Below are positions 1-6,674 of a DNA stretch of 64,000 nucleotides, one piece after another. The notes beneath the pieces were generated by a model, which was not told where the DNA came from, searched no databases, and saw only the letters and a program-made list of their open reading frames with translations. A program made the translations under genes and the position numbers. Location: positions 39,496-103,495 of the forward strand of contig JAKOGP010000002.1 in NCBI GenBank assembly GCA_022239325.1, given 5' to 3'. This stretch comes from Flavobacteriaceae bacterium LSUCC0859. GTDB taxonomy: Bacteria > Bacteroidota > Bacteroidia > Flavobacteriales > Flavobacteriaceae. How positions within the stretch are numbered: the stretch's first letter is position 1; every line of letters begins with the position of its first letter.

Positions 1-560
1 ACATTTTTATATAAGAAATAATTATACATATCTCTAACCACATCACATTCCTCCTTTACTAAACTTACCTCACCATTTACACTTTCAAAACCAAATCCTA
101 TATTACCTAATCCTTTTCCTTCTCTCCATCTTTTATTTCTTCCCTCCTTCATCACCCTAACCAACTTCCTTTTCCAATACTCACTGAATACACTGCTCAA
201 TCCATATTCTAATTCACCACTTCCCTCTAAAATATTTTTTTCTTCAAACCCAACAAAAACCCTAATATCATTATCCTCAACTAATTTTCTAAAATATAAC
301 ATCACTTCTACATCCCTAATCATTCTATCCCAATCATATAACCATATACCTCCAATCTCTCCATCAAATATTTTCTCTTCTAACTTTAAAAATACTTCCC
401 TATCACCACCCATCTTCACACCACTCACAACTTCACTAAAAACCTCATATTCAAACCCCTTATCCTTACAAAATTTAATACCTAATTCTTTCTGACTTTC
501 TAAACTGCTATTATCTTTCTGATTTTCACTACTTACTCTACAATAAACACCAACCTTCAT
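1..560 (-). CDS. Serine recombinase, truncated by window edge (N-terminal 186 residues)
   Basis: This is an open frame from an ATG at 560 running off the left edge. The N-terminus reads MKVGVYCRVSSENQ, the catalytic signature of resolvase/invertase enzymes: Ser10 is the likely nucleophile, with Arg8 beside it. WDRMIRD (about residues 77-83) matches the second catalytic arginine region. From about residue 150, GNIGFGFESVNGEVSL followed by VVRDMYNYF resembles the start of the recombinase domain of larger serine recombinases, so the full protein could be a large serine integrase. The visible part has no Thr, Pro, Ala or His. Its sense strand holds only about 6 C in 560 nt, five of them in CAG. 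It may be the integrase of the element; its length and C-terminus are unknown. Confidence 0.8.
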   Translation of the reverse strand, partial: MKVGVYCRVSSENQKDNSSLESQKELGIKFCKDKGFEYEVFSEVVSGVKMGGDREVFLKLEEKIFDGEIGGIWLYDWDRMIRDVEVMLYFRKLVEDNDIRVFVGFEEKNILEGSGELEYGLSSVFSEYWKRKLVRVMKEGRNKRWREGKGLGNIGFGFESVNGEVSLVKEECDVVRDMYNYFLYKN

Positions 561-714
561 AATTACAATTTTATATATTAAATAATGTCTCCCATAAATT
601 TAAACATTTCTCTCACATTATCTGTTTTTTTATATACAACTATATTAAAACCTCATTAACCCCTATTAAAACTAATCTTTCATATTATATCCCAATTAAT
701 CTTAACTATAAGAC

Positions 715-747
715 ATAAAAAAAGTGATAATATTTCTATCATCACTT
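715..747 (-). terminator. Rho-independent terminator after the MvaI-like endonuclease gene (copy 1 of a duplicated hairpin)
   Basis: Read on the minus strand, the two arms at 747-737 and 732-722 form an 11-bp stem with one G-T wobble around a GAAA loop (a GNRA tetraloop). A run of T follows, corresponding to the plus-strand A run at 715-723. It lies 26 bp after the stop of the endonuclease gene. A near-identical hairpin occurs at 2361-2386. Confidence 0.8.
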
Positions 748-773
748 ATTCTATCTTTATATATTAAATAATA

Positions 774-1514
774 CTACAATTCTAACTTCTCTTTATATAA
801 TCCATATAAACTTTCCTTTTTAATCCTAAATCCACTTCCATGATCATGAGGTTTTCCATAATTTTTACCAGATTTATAAACACCTATTCTTATATCAAAT
901 TGTATAAATCCATTTTCAAGAATTTTAAGAAATTCATTAAAATCAATATCTAAAAAAACAGTTCCAGAGTTATAATGATAATGATAAATATTATCTATGC
1001 TTTTTTGTTCTGCTGATACAACAAATAATTTATTCAGTTTATTTAAACCTTTTTCTAAATCTTCAAAATTCCAATAAACTTCATCATAAATTTCCCCTCC
1101 ATTTTTAACATGAAGATAAACCCTATTATTAGAATAGTCTACATGCATTTTCATAAAGTACTTACCATAAACCTCACTCCATTTATTTCCAAAAACACTA
1201 GCATAAAGTTTTTTTAAATCTGGAAAACTAGAATCTCTTACCTCTCCATATTTCTCTTTTAAAATTGCATTTGCTCCTTTTGGATATGATGGTGATTTAG
1301 AGAATAAAGTTATATAACTTGATGTTAATTCTCTTTGAGTTTTAATCTCAAAACCTTCAAAATCTGGATCTTTGAGATTATTTTCCTCTACCCCTAAATA
1401 ATCTTCAAAAGTATTTCCAATACCACCATCTTTATTTTTTACTCTGTTTGATTTAACAAATCCTAATTTTTTAATTCTATTAAATTCCTTTACTATTTTT
1501 TCTACTTTATTCAT
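774..1514 (-). CDS. MvaI/BcnI-family type II restriction endonuclease
   Basis: The 246-residue protein has the length and motif order I recall for MvaI. GNTFEDYL is near residue 34. The PD-(D/E)XK-type core follows in DPDFEGFEIKTQ, with likely metal ligands and catalytic residues Asp51, Glu56 and Lys58. Then come LFSKSPSYPKGAN and, near the C-terminus, DIRIGVYKSG and KPHDHGSGFRI. MvaI and BcnI cut CCWGG and CCSGG respectively, so a related five-base site is likely, but specificity cannot be read from sequence. It starts 36 bp from, and divergently to, the methyltransferase gene, the usual paired arrangement. Unlike its neighbours it uses Thr, Pro, Ala and His normally, so it entered the C-depleted element from elsewhere. 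Confidence 0.88.
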   Translation of the reverse strand: MNKVEKIVKEFNRIKKLGFVKSNRVKNKDGGIGNTFEDYLGVEENNLKDPDFEGFEIKTQRELTSSYITLFSKSPSYPKGANAILKEKYGEVRDSSFPDLKKLYASVFGNKWSEVYGKYFMKMHVDYSNNRVYLHVKNGGEIYDEVYWNFEDLEKGLNKLNKLFVVSAEQKSIDNIYHYHYNSGTVFLDIDFNEFLKILENGFIQFDIRIGVYKSGKNYGKPHDHGSGFRIKKESLYGLYKEKLEL

Positions 1515-1550
1515 TACTTAGTTCATATCTTTGAAACTAAAGTACAAATT

Positions 1551-2297
1551 GTGATAGAATTAGATAAAGTTTATTTTGAAAATTGTCTTGAAACATTAAG
1601 TAGAATGGATAATGATAGTGTGGATTGTGTTATTACATCACCTCCATACAATATGAATTTGAGAATTAGAAATGGAAAGTACTGCTCAAGACAAATTGTT
1701 AAGGAATTAAGTACTAAATATTCAACTTTTGATGATAATTTACCTATTGAAGAGTATAATGAATTTCATAGTAATGTTTTAAGTGAATTATTAAGAGTAT
1801 CAAAAGTTGTATTTTATAATATCCAAATTGTTACAGGTTCTAAAAGATCAATCTTTAAAATGATTGGTGATTTTAATGAACAGTTAAAAGATATAATAGT
1901 TTGGGATAAAGGAGTTGCACAACCTGCAATGCAAAAGCAAGTATTAAATAGAAGAACTGAATTGATTTTAGTTTTTGAAACTGATTACCCAATTAGCAGA
2001 CAATATAAATATGCAAATTTTGAAAGAGGTACATTGAATGATATTTGGGAAATAAAAAGAGGTAAAAAAGTAAGTAAAAATCATGGTGCAACATTTCCTG
2101 AAGAATTAATCAGTAAAATACTTGAAAACTTCACAAAAGAAGGTGAGATAGTATATGATCCATTTATGGGAACAGGAACAACTGCTATAGTATGTAAAAA
2201 GATGAATAGAAGATTTATTGGAAGTGAATTAGGAAAAGAATATTATGACTTTATATTGGAGAGATTAAGTGAATTAAATAATGAAATTCAATTTTAA
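1551..2297 (+). CDS. Site-specific DNA methyltransferase (beta-class motif order, probably N4-cytosine)
   Basis: The start is GTG at 1551. Catalytic motif IV TSPPYN lies at residues 29-34 and the SAM-binding motif DPFMGTGTT at about 203-211, so the order is catalytic motif first (beta class). An SPPY catalytic motif is commonest in N4-cytosine enzymes, which suits a partner of an MvaI-type nuclease, but N6-adenine activity is not excluded. At 248 residues it is shorter than I remember M.MvaI. It should methylate the site cut by the divergent nuclease and so protect the host. It is the only plus-strand gene in the element and has ordinary codon use. Its terminator is not obvious; it converges on the minus-strand hairpin at 2361-2386. 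Confidence 0.85.
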   Translation: MIELDKVYFENCLETLSRMDNDSVDCVITSPPYNMNLRIRNGKYCSRQIVKELSTKYSTFDDNLPIEEYNEFHSNVLSELLRVSKVVFYNIQIVTGSKRSIFKMIGDFNEQLKDIIVWDKGVAQPAMQKQVLNRRTELILVFETDYPISRQYKYANFERGTLNDIWEIKRGKKVSKNHGATFPEELISKILENFTKEGEIVYDPFMGTGTTAIVCKKMNRRFIGSELGKEYYDFILERLSELNNEIQF

Positions 2298-2353
2298 CTA
2301 TTTTTCATTCTTTTTAATCTAAATCCTTAATAAAAAATTTTCAATTTAATTAT

Positions 2354-2386
2354 AAAAAAAAAGTGACAATATCTCTATCATCACTT
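2354..2386 (-). terminator. Rho-independent terminator after the excisionase-like gene (copy 2 of the duplicated hairpin)
   Basis: On the minus strand the arms at 2386-2376 and 2371-2361 pair over 11 positions, with two G-T wobbles, around a GAGA loop (GNRA type). A T run follows (plus-strand A run 2354-2362). It lies 30 bp after the stop of the HTH gene. It differs from the hairpin at 722-747 at only a few bases. The two copies are in the same orientation and bracket the restriction-modification pair. Confidence 0.8.
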
Positions 2387-2415
2387 CTTCATTTTTACTA
2401 TGAGAACTTATTACA

Positions 2416-2604
2416 TTAACTAATTTTTCTATTATTCATATAATCATTAACATCATTAATATCAAATCTAACATTTCTTCCAAATTTCACATATTTCAAA
2501 CCATCATCATACATCATCTTTTCAACCTTTCCAATACTCACATCTAAATACTCACACAACCCTTTTTTATTTACAAATCTTCTATTTACTACTTCACTAT
2601 CCAT
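2416..2604 (-). CDS. Excisionase/MerR-like helix-turn-helix protein
   Basis: This is a 62-residue protein. VNKKGLCEYLDVSIGKVEKMM (about 11-31) fits a helix-turn-helix, followed by GLKYVKFGRNVRFDINDVNDYM. Small excisionase-type DNA-binding proteins (HTH_17 family) have the same pattern: a glycine, a V-[KR]-x-G-R turn, then a D-V-x-x-[YW] helix. The likely role is recombination directionality factor or local regulator for the serine recombinases. I see no sense-strand C in the gene, and the protein has no Thr, Pro, Ala, His or Gln. It lies 17 bp after the 103-residue unknown gene and shares its terminator. Confidence 0.65.
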   Translation of the reverse strand: MDSEVVNRRFVNKKGLCEYLDVSIGKVEKMMYDDGLKYVKFGRNVRFDINDVNDYMNNRKIS

Positions 2605-2621
2605 CTTAAAATTTATATTAA

Positions 2622-2933
2622 TTAAACATTTATATTTTTTCCACCTTTTCCTAATAAATCAATCCACTTCATCATCATTTCCACTTCCTCTTTTTCCTTA
2701 CCCTTATTTACAACACCAATTTTTAAACCATAATTTATCCATCTACTTACATCATCTAAACTATAAATTTTTTTAAAATCATTTCTCATCACTCTCTCTC
2801 TCAAACTATCATCACTCTCCCATTTTATAACATCATTTTCTACTCCAATTTCTTCAAAATCACTCCCAACTATTCTTAAATTTCTCATATTTAATTCTTT
2901 TTTATTATAAATATCTTCAAATTCTGAATACAC
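2622..2933 (-). CDS. Hypothetical acidic/basic-mixed protein of the C-depleted element
   Basis: This is a 103-residue open frame that I do not recognise. It is highly charged, with no membrane segment and no cysteine motif. An internal ATG at 2888 (MRNLRIVG) would give an 88-residue protein and is an equally good start. Only one C is seen in the sense strand, in a CAG context (codons TCA GAA). The protein contains no Thr, Pro, Ala, His or Gln. It precedes the excisionase-like gene by 17 bp, so the two are probably cotranscribed. The retained open frame and matching composition argue that it is a real gene. Confidence 0.55.
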   Translation of the reverse strand: MYSEFEDIYNKKELNMRNLRIVGSDFEEIGVENDVIKWESDDSLRERVMRNDFKKIYSLDDVSRWINYGLKIGVVNKGKEKEEVEMMMKWIDLLGKGGKNINV

Positions 2934-3359
2934 CTATTTATACCTATTTTTCCCTATTTTTTTATTTAATCAGTTTTATTTTACAATCCAAATTCATATT
3001 TTTATTTTGCTAAAACCACTCTTTATATAATATAATACCACTCCCCCTTATTTCCAACTATTACCCCATAAAACCCTATTTTTTAGTATACTCCATAAAA
3101 ATTTATTCATAACTTTATGCTGATACACCATTCTTAAAAAAATCCCCCTACACCCCACACACACTTATATACCTAATATAATTCTATACACACTTACTTA
3201 TTTATTCTATACACTATCACCCTATATACCAAAAAATCTTCAGCAATATAAACACCAATATTTCCCACTTTTTACCAAAAAATACTTTTTAAGGGAATTT
3301 AACTAAATACTTTATAAATTTTTCTTTAAAACCATTACTCTATACATCACTATTATTTT
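2934..3359. other. 426-bp noncoding spacer of the C-depleted element
   Basis: No coding frame is supported. The plus strand stays A/C/T with few G, like the neighbouring genes, so the cytosine depletion is not limited to coding sequence. It separates the second recombinase gene from the two-gene operon ending at 2416 and must hold that operon's promoter. No convincing hairpin or repeat was seen. Confidence 0.6.
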
Positions 3360-4037
3360 CTACACACTCATATATAACTTCATCATATTATAAACACTAC
3401 TCATATACCACTCTCCCCCATATTTACTTTTAACACCATCTTCATTTAATCTATTACTGATTTTACTCCAACTATACCCTCTACTTCTTAATCCCTTTAT
3501 TCTACTTATCACTTTCATTTCTTCTTCATTTTTAACTAATCTACCATCTACATCATTATATCCATACATCAATCTCCCACTAACTAATCCTTTACTCTTC
3601 TTTTCCCTCTTAACATCTCTAATTCTCTCTCTAATATTCTCTACTTCAAACTCATTTATACTACTCATTATATTAACTATCAAACTCCCAATCTTATCTT
3701 CATTATTCAAATTCTCCTTTATACTATAAAAACTTTTTCCATTTTTTTTCAATACATCTAACAATCCAATTACATCACTCATCCTTCTACCCAACCTACT
3801 CAAACTATACACTACCACTCCATCAATATTATTATTCATCAAATAATCTAACATATCCTTATAACCATTTCTCTTATCTATACTCATACCACTTATTCCC
3901 CTATCCTCATAAACATCTAATAATTCATAATCCATATACTTACAATAATCTTTAATCTTACTACTCTGATTAATTAAACTGTATCCTTTAATCTGACTCT
4001 TACTACTTACTCTAATATATCCTATAACCTTTTTCAT
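3360..4037 (-). CDS. Serine recombinase (resolvase/invertase family), complete
   Basis: This 225-residue protein starts MKKVIGYIRVSSKSQ, with likely nucleophile Ser11, Arg9 and the conserved Gln15. GISGMSIDKRNGYKDML and VVYSLSRLGRRMSD (catalytic arginines about Arg81/Arg84) follow, then INEFEVENIRERIRD of the long helix. The C-terminal part (from about 185) reads RGYSWSKISNRLNEDGVKSK, as in the DNA-binding part of resolvases and the start of recombinase domains. At positions that are normally Thr it has Ser, Met and Ile (for example ERI where ERT is usual). By hand count the whole gene has four sense-strand C, all in CAG; two are third-codon positions that could be T without changing the protein. 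It follows the 74-residue gene by 40 bp. Role: resolution, inversion or integration of the element. Confidence 0.88.
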   Translation of the reverse strand: MKKVIGYIRVSSKSQIKGYSLINQSSKIKDYCKYMDYELLDVYEDRGISGMSIDKRNGYKDMLDYLMNNNIDGVVVYSLSRLGRRMSDVIGLLDVLKKNGKSFYSIKENLNNEDKIGSLIVNIMSSINEFEVENIRERIRDVKREKKSKGLVSGRLMYGYNDVDGRLVKNEEEMKVISRIKGLRSRGYSWSKISNRLNEDGVKSKYGGEWYMSSVYNMMKLYMSV

Positions 4038-4053
4038 ATCTATAATTTATAAT

Positions 4054-4075
4054 ATCATTACACTAAAAAAATATA
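4054..4075 (-). repeat. Upstream repeat, copy 1 of 3
   Basis: On the plus strand the core is ATCATTACACTAAAAAAATA and continues to 4075. It lies 17 bp before the start codon of the complete serine recombinase. Almost the same sequence occurs at 6376-6400 and 6426-6450, before the replication gene. It is probably a shared promoter or operator element. Confidence 0.6.
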
Positions 4076-4077
4076 CA

Positions 4078-4302
4078 CTACTTTCTAAATTCATTTATAA
4101 CATCACTCCACTTATCTAAATCTCCTTTCATCATTACCTTCAAAACTATTTTACACAAATAATCATATATATCATCATCAAAAAATCCCTCCTCTCTAAA
4201 ATCATCAACAACCATTTCTAAATATCTTTCAACAATTTCTTTTTCACTTAACAATACATTTCCATCTAAATACTCAAACTTTTCTAAATCCATAACCATC
4301 AT
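4078..4302 (-). CDS. Small acidic hypothetical protein
   Basis: This is a 74-residue, strongly acidic protein with no recognisable family; ATG codons at 4302, 4299 and 4293 are all possible starts. It lies 40 bp upstream of the complete serine recombinase and reads in the same direction, so the two may form an operon. I find no C in the 225-nt sense strand: the gene is written entirely in A, G and T. Thr, Pro, Ala, His and Gln are absent. An accessory or regulatory role for the recombinase is a guess from position only. Confidence 0.6.
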   Translation of the reverse strand: MMVMDLEKFEYLDGNVLLSEKEIVERYLEMVVDDFREEGFFDDDIYDYLCKIVLKVMMKGDLDKWSDVINEFRK

Positions 4303-4393
4303 TTCTATATTAATATTAAAATACTACTATAAAATTAATACCACTCCCTCATGCCTCCAACCATATAACTAACTCTTTATCAATTATTTAAAT

Positions 4394-4423
4394 AAAAAAA
4401 AGCATAACTTTCATTATACTTTT
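4394..4423 (-). terminator. Probable Rho-independent terminator after the zinc-cysteine protein gene
   Basis: On the minus strand the arms at 4423-4414 and 4407-4398 pair over 10 positions, with one G-T wobble, around a six-base loop, followed by T (plus-strand A run 4394-4401). It lies about 50 bp after the stop of the gene at 4475-4744. The stem has one GC pair and one GT pair, as expected where C is scarce. Confidence 0.55.
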
Positions 4424-4474
4424 CTAAATTAAATCCACAATTATTTTTATCTGATAATTACATATCTATTAATA

Positions 4475-4744
4475 TTAATTTCCTTTTTTCTTCTTCTCTA
4501 CATATTCTTTATTATAATCAACCCTATAATACTTACCTCTTTCACTCACTTCTCCATTTCTATAATCTCTTAAATATTTAGAAACACATTTTTTACATCT
4601 AAAACTATAACCATCAATTCTATTACTTTTATCTTTTACAAAATCCTTAATATCTTTCCATTCATCACATATACTGCATTTCTTTTCTACTACATCACCC
4701 CTTTCATTAAACTTCCTCTTATAATTTTTTTCTCTATTATCCAT
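4475..4744 (-). CDS. Small zinc-binding (four-cysteine) protein, HNH-associated type
   Basis: This 89-residue basic protein has two CxxC pairs: Cys23/Cys26 in KKCSICDEW and Cys50/Cys53 in FRCKKCVSKY. The spacing and the intervening DFVKDKSNRIDGYSF resemble the zinc module that precedes HNH nuclease domains in phage and plasmid proteins (K-x-C-x-x-C ... F ... DGY ... C-x-x-C). No HNH histidines are present, so it is either a stand-alone zinc module or an HNH protein without its nuclease part. It starts 27 bp after the replication-like gene and is probably cotranscribed with it. Two sense-strand C are seen. Thr, Pro, Ala, His and Gln are absent. Confidence 0.6.
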   Translation of the reverse strand: MDNREKNYKRKFNERGDVVEKKCSICDEWKDIKDFVKDKSNRIDGYSFRCKKCVSKYLRDYRNGEVSERGKYYRVDYNKEYVEKKKKGN

Positions 4745-4771
4745 AACCTTAATAATTTTACAAAATCTGTA

Positions 4772-6340
4772 CTATTTGCTTTTAAAACTAATACAACTAT
4801 TCAACCCTTCTAACTCACTATCAATTAAAATATTTACAATACCTAAATCACTCTTTTTAATTAACATCCCATCATATAAACTTATATAAAATATTTTTCT
4901 TTCAATAAATTTCTTCCAAATACCTCTCATAATTAAAACCTCCATACTCATCAACACCCTACTCATATTTTTAAATCTCTCATATCCATAATAATTCTCC
5001 CCTCTTAATTTAAAATCAATATCACTATTTTTTATTTTCTCTATTACTTCATATCCCCCTTTACAAAAAATCTTCTCCATTATCTCATCATAACTAAACT
5101 GATTATTCAAATACCTCTTTCTCATTCCATCTCCCCTTTCTCCATTAATCAAATACAAAATCAATCCCTTCATATATTTCCTATTTACCTCACCAATATT
5201 TTTATCAATAACTCCTAATTCTATACCTAAATACTTATAAAAATCAATTCTTTCATTTCCCTCAAAACACATTTCATACTTATTCAAAAAATCACTTACA
5301 TCAATATCACCAACAATTTTTTTTATATAATCATCAAATTTACTTTCCCCTTTTTTTACATTTTTAATACCCTTCAATAATCTGTAAAACAAACTCACAT
5401 AACCATTCACCATATCAACATCTACAACATTTTCACCATCTAATTTTATTACACTTCTAAATTCTTTTTCCTTATTAATTATAATATTTACATACCTGCC
5501 ACTTTTATTATCTCTACCAAATCCATCAAAACTAAATCCTCCTCTTTTTAATTCATCTAATTCAATTTTTAATAAATCAAAACTCAATCTTCCATTAAAC
5601 AAATAATCACTTCTTCTTTTATCATCCCAACCCCTTTCAACTTTTTTTCTCTCTTTATTACTTATAAAATCCCAATCTCTTTTTTCCCAATCTAACTCAA
5701 TTTTACCATTCAATCTTCTCTTCAATAAAACACCAATACCATCACTATTACTTACAACATCAACATTTTTACAACTTTCAATTTCCCAATAAATAAATTC
5801 ATCTCTATCATTACCAACCTTCAATTCTCCACTATATAATTTATCTAAAAATCTATTTAACCTACTATTCCTAATCCAAACAATCCTTCTTTCACATTTC
5901 TCATTAAAAAACCCATCATTCAACTCATACAACTCTTTTTTCTTCCCAAACTTTCCTTTTTCATATTTAATATTTATTATATCTAAATTCTTTAACTCAG
6001 CAATTATTTCAATATATCTACTTCCCAAAATTCCACAACATACTTTACTACTCTCAACATAAACCCATCTATTATCTCTTCTTCTCTCAACCTCAATTCC
6101 TTTTTTGTATAATACAAACAAAAACCTACCTATTCTCTCAACTAAATCATACCCAAATATTTTCTCAATCTCTCTTTCATCCCAATAACTAAACTCATAT
6201 CTGATATATTTTTCATCAATTACTATATTATTTAATCTACTTACCCACTTACCACTATCTTCATTAAAATATTTTTTAATATCCTTATTATAATCACCAT
6301 AACTATATTCTCTATTTTTACTATACCACTTATAACTCAT
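4772..6340 (-). CDS. Large polymerase-like / replication protein of the element
   Basis: This is a 522-residue protein that I cannot place in a named family. The C-terminal half has a motif order seen in plasmid and phage proteins with a family-A-like polymerase palm. FGRDNKSGRYVN (274-285) is followed by VVDVDMVNGYVSLFYRLL (305-322, motif A-like acidic residues Asp307/Asp309). NRKYMKGLILYL (386-397) is motif B-like, then SMEVLIM, then ISLYDGMLI (486-494), which is motif C-like with Tyr where His-Asp is usual. The first 270 residues resemble replication-initiator N-terminal regions only in being basic and alpha/beta. The protein has no Thr, Pro or His, one Ala and one Gln, and about 7 sense-strand C in 1569 nt. 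It is probably the replication protein; two repeats lie just upstream. Confidence 0.5.
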   Translation of the reverse strand: MSYKWYSKNREYSYGDYNKDIKKYFNEDSGKWVSRLNNIVIDEKYIRYEFSYWDEREIEKIFGYDLVERIGRFLFVLYKKGIEVERRRDNRWVYVESSKVCCGILGSRYIEIIAELKNLDIINIKYEKGKFGKKKELYELNDGFFNEKCERRIVWIRNSRLNRFLDKLYSGELKVGNDRDEFIYWEIESCKNVDVVSNSDGIGVLLKRRLNGKIELDWEKRDWDFISNKERKKVERGWDDKRRSDYLFNGRLSFDLLKIELDELKRGGFSFDGFGRDNKSGRYVNIIINKEKEFRSVIKLDGENVVDVDMVNGYVSLFYRLLKGIKNVKKGESKFDDYIKKIVGDIDVSDFLNKYEMCFEGNERIDFYKYLGIELGVIDKNIGEVNRKYMKGLILYLINGERGDGMRKRYLNNQFSYDEIMEKIFCKGGYEVIEKIKNSDIDFKLRGENYYGYERFKNMSRVLMSMEVLIMRGIWKKFIERKIFYISLYDGMLIKKSDLGIVNILIDSELEGLNSCISFKSK

Positions 6341-6375
6341 AACAATAACTTATCTATATATAATACCAATATAAT

Positions 6376-6400
6376 ATCATTACACTAAAATAATATATAA
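6376..6400 (-). repeat. Upstream repeat, copy 2 of 3
   Basis: On the plus strand it begins ATCATTACACTAAAATAATA. It is 36 bp upstream of the replication-like gene start and exactly 50 bp from copy 3 (start to start), about five helical turns. Candidate operator, promoter or iteron. Confidence 0.6.
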
Positions 6401-6425
6401 AAAATATAATTAATAAATTACTACA

Positions 6426-6450
6426 ATCATTACACTAAAAAAATATATAA
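6426..6450 (-). repeat. Upstream repeat, copy 3 of 3
   Basis: On the plus strand it begins ATCATTACACTAAAAAAATA. It matches copy 1 at 4054 over 22 bases and copy 2 at 6376 with one difference. It lies 50 bp from copy 2 in the same orientation. Confidence 0.6.
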
Positions 6451-6674
6451 CCATTAAAACTAATTATTCATCAAATAAAATAAAATCACACATAATTAAT
6501 CAATATAATTAATCCAAAAAATAATAAATATAAACTACTGATAATCAGATATATACATTTTATTTCTATTATAATTTATCTTACTTCTCCCACAAATATT
6601 CCAATTAACATCCAAAACTACATTAACAATAAATCTATTTTTATATATCAAATTACAACCCTTTACTACTTCAT

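Follow-up and report, generated by a model that had tools for sequence, protein, structure and literature searches.

A small integrating element of Flavobacteriaceae with one DNA strand nearly free of cytosine

How can a mobile element give up almost all of one base on one strand and still keep its genes intact? The question is raised by a 64,000-nucleotide (nt) stretch of Flavobacteriaceae bacterium LSUCC0859 (contig JAKOGP010000002.1, positions 39,496 to 103,495), hereafter the window, at whose left end lies part of an element of about 7.7 kb with its own integrase and a predicted DNA polymerase. One physical strand of this element is nearly free of cytosine (C, 0.4-0.7%). With a probability of roughly 0.4, this may be because the predicted polymerase makes only that strand and mishandles G in its template. 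A wider claim is offered more tentatively, namely a family of replicons with a three-letter strand, in which the element's own polymerase would place no C, the proteins would have been rebuilt from fifteen amino acids, and genes on the opposite strand would nearly lack G-coded residues.

Extent of the depletion and the strand concerned

Seven genes outside a restriction-modification cassette were counted, all on the minus strand (the integrase part 3-560, 2416-2604, 2622-2933, 3360-4037, 4078-4302, 4475-4744, and 4772-6340). Their sense strand holds 20 C in 3,801 nt (0.53%), which makes the hand count of the original prediction (about 20 in about 3800) exact; the genes at 2416-2604 and 4078-4302 have none, as had been noted there. 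The spacers had been called similarly poor. They are indeed poor, with 20 C in 1,185 nt (1.69%), yet their share of C is roughly threefold that of the genes, and the spacer 2934-3359 alone holds 9 of these 20. The endonuclease and methyltransferase genes of the cassette, with 6.9 and 8.2% sense-strand C, are ordinary. The rarer of C and G falls to 0.2% in the poorest 500 nt inside 2401-6660, whereas the corresponding minimum is 11.2% for 6801-64000 and 13.4% for the 18.9 kb preceding the element on its left, so the description of the remaining window as ordinary stands, as do those of a mobile element and of an effect covering the whole block. GC skew on the C-poor strand is 0.94 (2391-6660). 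The proteins are affected as well: leaving the integrase aside, the products of the six C-poor genes contain 4 alanine, proline, threonine, glutamine or histidine residues (A+P+T+Q+H) in 1,075, and the 550-residue integrase contains 10, part of them coded by a transfer RNA (tRNA) gene.

Relatives share this composition. The 522-amino-acid (aa) polymerase-like protein has 38 homologues, one of them named Polaribacter, whose A+P+T+Q+H content ranges from 0.0% (P0034, P0036) to 9.3% (P0010) and lies below 1% in 14. Four homologous proteins of 519-556 aa contain none of the five residues at all. Among 93 integrase homologues, including the window's own P0039, the remote ones (P0109-P0130) are ordinary, with 14.6-24.9%, and the nearer ones have 0.3-12.1%. 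The integrase alignment matched three loci in viral_contigs, of which L014 is C-poor throughout and L015 and L016 are not. L014 is a closed circle of 8,310 bp, by virtue of a 99-nt terminal repeat, with 33 C on one strand (0.40%) and a GC skew of 0.96. It carries the gene set of the window element, that is, a large serine integrase, a polymerase-like protein, a small serine recombinase and a helix-turn-helix protein. Its polymerase-like protein has six homologue matches, one of them itself; P0132 and P0134 lack A, P, T, Q and H in 556 and 555 residues, and P0135 and P0136 have 2.2%. Since a profile of six proteins of the L014 branch matches the window protein (E 4.4e-37, positions 18-552), both branches form one family. 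A less depleted relative is represented by fragments in a Flavobacteriaceae assembly (L004, 3.75% C in 800 nt; L013, 1.73% in 695 nt), one of which adjoins tRNA-Val. From these sequences, the elements appear to be an undescribed family, small and integrating, with one member a closed circle. Nothing alike stood among the matches listed in open-licence literature without preprint servers, in agreement with the original prediction, although an unlisted paper is possible.

A sequencing or assembly artefact, such as a bisulfite-treated library or a chimeric contig, was also considered, and nothing was found in its favour. Normal sequence flanks the element on both sides within one 468-kb contig, the strand opposite the C-poor one has 25% C, and the open reading frames are intact. 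Because homologues from other assemblies are equally depleted, including the 14 of 38 polymerase homologues mentioned above and the closed circle from another dataset, an artefact is very unlikely, to the point of being negligible.

The window polymerase alignment found one locus in genome_contigs and none in viral_contigs, and no plasmid or phage record matched the protein. In overlapping draws of 397 and 329 genomes of the family, 395 of the order and 12 of the genus, the own genome was the sole strong match; two more of the 397 and four more of the 395 matched weakly (E 4e-6 to 9e-4); in the genus of G762 the only match in 38 genomes was G762 itself. The L014-branch profile recovered the own genome from 209 and, like the L014 protein itself, only L014 from viral_contigs, and a C-free recombinase motif likewise recovered only L014 there and only the own genome among 395 of the phylum. 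Two candidates were dropped from the homologue alignment: L006, with just an 81-aa frame at the match, and L008, where the match overlaps a 503-aa open reading frame that is presumably an ordinary host enzyme. The remote homologues L007, L009, and L010 were kept.

The original prediction assigned the depletion to the sense strand. The depletion is real, but it goes with the physical DNA strand. All C-poor genes of the window element share one direction, so the C-poor strand is the coding strand there. In L014, a gene on the opposite strand (8-298) has 49 C and 6 G in the 291 nt of its sense strand. This is the sole ATG-started frame of at least 20 codons on its strand (the next has 17), its third positions avoid C (4/97 versus 45/194, p 2e-5), and the C of L014's C-poor strand is enriched within it (6/291 versus 27/8,019, p 9e-4). 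Beyond the start codon, each of its G is the first or second base of a codon, the residues being Arg, Glu, Asp, Asp and Ala. If 8-298 is a gene, as its codon signal says, the pressure would act on the DNA strand and bend any gene located there. The depletion thus tracks the DNA strand, on the basis of one gene of one relative and of the spacers.

This gene also speaks against selection on messenger RNA, which the original prediction had proposed. Selection against C in transcripts, through cytidine triphosphate (CTP) analogues, C-cutting ribonucleases or CTP shortage, agrees with the C-poor strand being the coding strand of every C-poor gene in the window element. However, the opposite-strand gene of L014 would yield a C-rich, G-poor transcript, and the spacers, though maybe transcribed, are depleted too; little credence is left for this explanation. 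Avoidance of restriction sites, also suggested earlier, would not require the loss of every C on one strand only.

The predicted polymerase and possible routes of cytosine loss

The 522-aa protein is predicted to be a family A-like DNA polymerase, with the palm, fingers and thumb fold of the Pol I family over residues ~170-522, and is probably the replication protein of the element. D309 and D490 are invariant in 16 sequences, three ordinary homologues included, and R387 and K391 are nearly so, which would correspond to the motif A Asp, motif B Arg/Lys and motif C Asp of a family A-like polymerase. The positions of the Pol I fidelity pair E710/Y766 hold Tyr/Asn in all 37 aligned sequences. All fold matches listed belong to family A or to the single-subunit RNA polymerases, there is no Pfam match, and over residues 1-170, a region barely probed by the fold comparison, no match to an exonuclease domain stood out.

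In the proposed mechanism, this enzyme would make one strand only and the host the other. It would insert dC poorly opposite template G, putting in T or stalling, and repeated misinsertion (mutation) together with failure at leftover template G (selection) would drive C out. In lineages that remain in the chromosome and leave their copying to the host, the depletion would relax, and the restriction-modification cassette would be a late arrival, not yet affected.

The C that remain are not randomly placed. In the window element, 22 of 43 scored residual C stand in CAG, versus 187 of 2,040 T in TAG (odds ratio 10.4, p 6e-12), and in L014 9 of 33 do (odds ratio 4.6, p 6e-4); none of the 43 or of the 33 precedes G. 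CTG alone was non-significant (6/43, p 0.28, and 5/33, p 0.09), and a surplus of CCA was confined to L014 (2/33, p 0.006); the p values, from tests of five contexts, are uncorrected. The contexts are spread over several reading frames and are present in spacers too. The less depleted fragments gave no significant surplus of CAG (L013 3/12, L004 3/30), and there C stood before G in 1/12 and 2/30. Such dependence on the following bases would suit a polymerase effect. Vsr-type T:G repair was rejected as the cause of CAG and CTG retention: PF03852 was absent from the own genome (0/1), with a control found in 5 of 14 genomes. Folding was likewise rejected as the reason for residual C in the long spacer, which in the window folds neither better nor worse than shuffles (z 0.03) and in L014 only weakly differs (z -1.31).

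The dependence of residual C on its 3' neighbours bears also on deamination. If the strand were long single-stranded, during rolling-circle replication, displacement or transfer, its C could be deaminated to uracil, spontaneously or by a host enzyme, and fixed as T. This would account for a strand-wise effect across genes and spacers, for the circular form and for a modest T excess in spacers. However, besides the 3' dependence, the replacements carry no C-to-T fingerprint, and we know of no single-stranded DNA phage with anything near 0.4% C. A Pfam scan of ten window and ten L014 proteins (PHROGs and NCBIfam on part of them) revealed no deaminase family, host deaminases and uracil repair not being covered. 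The original prediction had advised looking for a deaminase gene in the missing left part of the element, which turned out to be the remainder of the integrase only. Deamination is considered unlikely.

Replacements were compared between 9 less depleted and 14 depleted polymerases (8 of the 31 rows, in between, were unused, and no significance test was applied). Where the less depleted group has Ala, Gly reaches.24 (expected.10) and Val.07 (.09) in the depleted group; likewise, at Thr sites, Ser.18 (.12) and Ile.07 (.09); at His sites, Tyr.20 (.17) and Asp.18 (.08); at Gln sites, Glu.23 (.19) and Lys.22 (.18); and at Pro sites, Ile.17 (.06). The pattern fits replacement by any route, or saturation. 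Among close pairs, many of which share a sequence and so are not independent, the ratios of A/G-only to C/T-only changes in 13 C-poor pairs were 9:0, 4:0, 11:0, 10:1, 24:0, 19:1, 49:2, 38:1, 66:1, 39:0, 51:2, 1:1, and 30:1; three intermediate pairs gave 4:0, 37:7, and 28:1, and four ordinary recombinase pairs 38:11, 29:5, 50:11, and 42:8, a contrast that is partly trivial where C is already gone. Since these patterns argue against a purely mutational account, room is kept for selection, as failure at leftover template G would strip C by any route.

Both comparisons can also be claimed by a DNA-level selection that favours a strand lacking C for some purpose other than copying, for example a non-folding single strand, stable RNA-DNA hybrids priming replication, or escape from a C-reading host defence. 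The replacements resemble best-fit residues reached by any route rather than C-to-T, and close pairs diverge almost wholly without C. However, 1.6 kb of ordinary cassette is tolerated, in the window element the long spacer folds just as shuffles do, and a purpose requiring about 99% removal would be needed; this explanation too is judged improbable, on a par with deamination.

Several points weigh against the polymerase mechanism. One-strand synthesis, the polymerase activity and its errors are steps that we infer. The motif C of Pol I is His-Asp-Glu; here its His is absent, C-poor relatives having Tyr/Phe-Asp-Gly or Phe-Asp-Ser and L009 and L010 His-Asp, hence the choice of the term family A-like over Pol I. 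The TM-scores from Foldseek are low, at 0.3-0.4, and when solved structures were searched with a profile of the homologue alignment, no polymerase stood among nine chance-level matches, so that the assignment rests on the predicted fold. Two of the three ordinary remote homologues (18-20% identical) have Phe at the Y766 column and L007 has Asn, and the Tyr/Asn pair is also present in some relatives whose depletion is much weaker (the A+P+T+Q+H content of P0010 given above, and 7.3% in P0009). The cassette shows no comparable depletion. The amino-acid replacements of the 9 less depleted versus 14 depleted polymerases show no C-to-T signature, and spacer T exceeds A by just 3.6 and 3.9 points, with G at 18.5 and 15.9%, which is less than plain C-to-T conversion of a symmetric ancestor would predict. 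As for the L014 gene at 8-298, stop-to-stop stretches of 95-122 codons occur elsewhere on the same strand, so its length proves nothing; its product has only a weak family match, below the cut-off (PrgO, E 0.0033), and is a single helix in a single-sequence model. That model contains no ribbon-helix-helix, no solved relative scored convincingly, and a single weak plasmid match was obtained by tblastn (E 0.4).

Some variation within the family was observed in passing. Intermediate members (P0017-P0024, P0060-P0069) keep Thr and Gln and have few Ala (P0017: A1 T14 Q6), and GC-type codons seem to be lost first. P0011, of 463 aa and listed for 11 contigs, seems to stem from an element with an internal deletion: it begins as the polymerase-like protein (95% identity across 54%) and goes on as the final third of the integrase (99%). 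Several contigs with relatives measure 7.1-8.5 kb (7262, 7336, 7439, 7624, 8199, 8282, and 8491 bp), near the size of L014. Contigs below and above this range occur too, and the sizes may reflect an upper limit, for example by packaging. The start of the open reading frame L004:1-2319 is taken by us to resemble a Cas9-type protein.

Gene map, insertion and cargo

The features are as follows, in window coordinates unless L003 is given.

L003 8876-8949, tRNA-Met (tRNA call), into which the integrase frame runs
3..560, minus, 5' part of the large serine integrase gene (PF00239; 550 aa), the rest of which extends as far as about window -1092, with its end within tRNA-Met at the left junction
561..716, spacer low in C, located 5' of the integrase gene (561-718 has 3 sense C in 158 nt)
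717..751, left copy of a 35-nt hairpin-like repeat (three mismatches in pairwise alignment to 2356-2390)
774..1514, minus, MvaI/BcnI-family type II restriction endonuclease, cargo (PF15515, E 6.3e-55)
1551..2297, plus, N4/N6 DNA methyltransferase, cargo (PF01555, E 2.1e-39)
2356..2390, right copy of the 35-nt hairpin-like repeat
2416..2604, minus, 62-aa helix-turn-helix (HTH_17) protein (PF12728, E 4.6e-6), no sense C
2622..2933, minus, 103-aa protein with no function assigned, 1 sense C
2934..3359, long non-coding spacer, richest in residual C (9 C in 426 nt)
3360..4037, minus, 225-aa small serine recombinase of resolvase/invertase type (PF00239, E 5.1e-37; PF07508)
4033..4082, third copy of an iteron-like repeat with the core ATCATTACACTAAAA (68% identity with the reference copy)
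4078..4302, minus, 74-aa protein with no function assigned, no sense C
4475..4744, minus, 89-aa zinc-finger protein like endonuclease VII and Lar-like phage families (phrog_2340, E 1.4e-8; phrog_5558, E 7e-8)
4772..6340, minus, 522-aa protein with predicted family A-like DNA polymerase fold (~170-522), 7 sense C in 1,569 nt
6355..6404 and 6405..6454, a pair of iteron-like repeats in front of the polymerase-like gene
6535..6663, minus, end segment, putative integrase C-terminus in the circular form (...IYKNRFIVNVVLDVNWNICGRSKINYNRNKMYISDYQ), as in the tail of P0056
6664..6667, putative right attachment core, TACT on plus, shared with L003 8947-8950 at the 3' end of tRNA-Met (P0056 frame and tRNA call)

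In reading direction, the genes follow the order polymerase-like, zinc-finger, 74 aa, small serine recombinase, 103 aa, helix-turn-helix, cassette, and integrase. The three 50-nt iteron-like repeats are 68-72% identical to the reference copy, and we infer a candidate origin at 6355..6454. The long spacer has a counterpart at a similar place in the gene order of L014 (5646-6553, 7 C in 908 nt). The zinc-finger protein contains no His, despite its resemblance to endonuclease VII and Lar-like restriction-alleviation proteins.

The full-length integrase gene is L003:8908-10560(-). PF00239, PF07508, and PF13408, precomputed for P0039, which is 100% identical to the window integrase, provide a resolvase catalytic domain, a Recombinase domain and a zinc ribbon, the domain set of a large serine integrase, as which the protein is classified from its sequence. 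The element had been placed at 1..6674; its left end, however, lies outside the window, and it would extend from the 3' end of tRNA-Met (L003 8947-8950, about window -1050) to about window 6664-6667. This placement derives from P0056, a metagenome integrase fragment of 385 aa, 97% identical over 63% of the integrase, which ends in ...DDLVKGYNLIYKNRF...MYISDYQ and not in tRNA-coded residues. As this tail matches the reading frame 6535-6663 at the other end of the element, the junction core would be TACT, the element about 7.7 kb long, and the integrase gene would span the attachment site (attP). On integration, the circular-form C-terminus of the integrase is exchanged for VAGTGLEPVTFGL, coded by the tRNA antisense, and this swap could switch the integrase between integration and excision.

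The type II restriction-modification cargo was confirmed by adjacent genes (PADLOC REase_II and MTase_II; PF15515 and PF01555). The 35-nt repeats on both of its sides suggest exchange of the cassette via recombination. Among the scanned element and L014 proteins, Pfam revealed no relaxase or transfer family (E up to 1, several small proteins being without assignment), no HUH endonuclease Rep, no coat or morphogenesis family, and no reverse transcriptase such as a diversity-generating retroelement or a similar mutator would have. In PHROGs, searched with part of the proteins, the sole phage-structure match was weak (head-tail adaptor, 74-aa protein, E 0.036).

Comparison with known systems

Polymerase-like proteins of more than 500 residues without any Ala, Pro, Thr, Gln, or His constitute a natural experiment on reduced amino-acid alphabets, on the reach of a single copying bias and on how fidelity residues shape genomes. 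If the polymerase mechanism is true, an enzyme with a near-absolute defect at template G would be a new tool, and the cause of an extreme strand bias could be tested in vitro.

A known class of genomic islands enters tRNA genes by means of large serine integrases, and the element shares with it the integrase domains and the insertion at a tRNA end. Unlike in that class, its attP would lie inside the integrase gene, the C-terminus being replaced by a tRNA-coded one. Pipolins, treated by ExplorePipolin, are reportedly integrative or plasmid-like elements with their own family B polymerase, and they integrate next to tRNA genes. The element family has in common with them tRNA-adjacent integration, a circular form, an integrase and an own, here predicted, DNA polymerase; it differs by a predicted family A-like polymerase, a large serine integrase, a size of about 7.7-8.3 kb and one strand nearly free of C. 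The element protein, a predicted polymerase, is remote in sequence from the low-fidelity members of family A, human DNA polymerase nu among them (PMC5472330), with about 10% identity in structural alignment.

The nearest printed asymmetry among the matches listed is that of Microgenomates Ch65, for which the matched passages report 29.83% C and 14.97% G on one strand and propose one-way replication (PMC7143001). Common to Ch65, as described in these passages, and the element is a whole replicon with one strand poor in G or C. The asymmetry of Ch65 is far milder, those two values standing against 0.4-0.7% C and 18-25% G in the element. Strand asymmetry is thus already known, at a far milder degree in the cases compared, whereas the present family of replicons, with intact genes, has a strand in which one base is all but absent.

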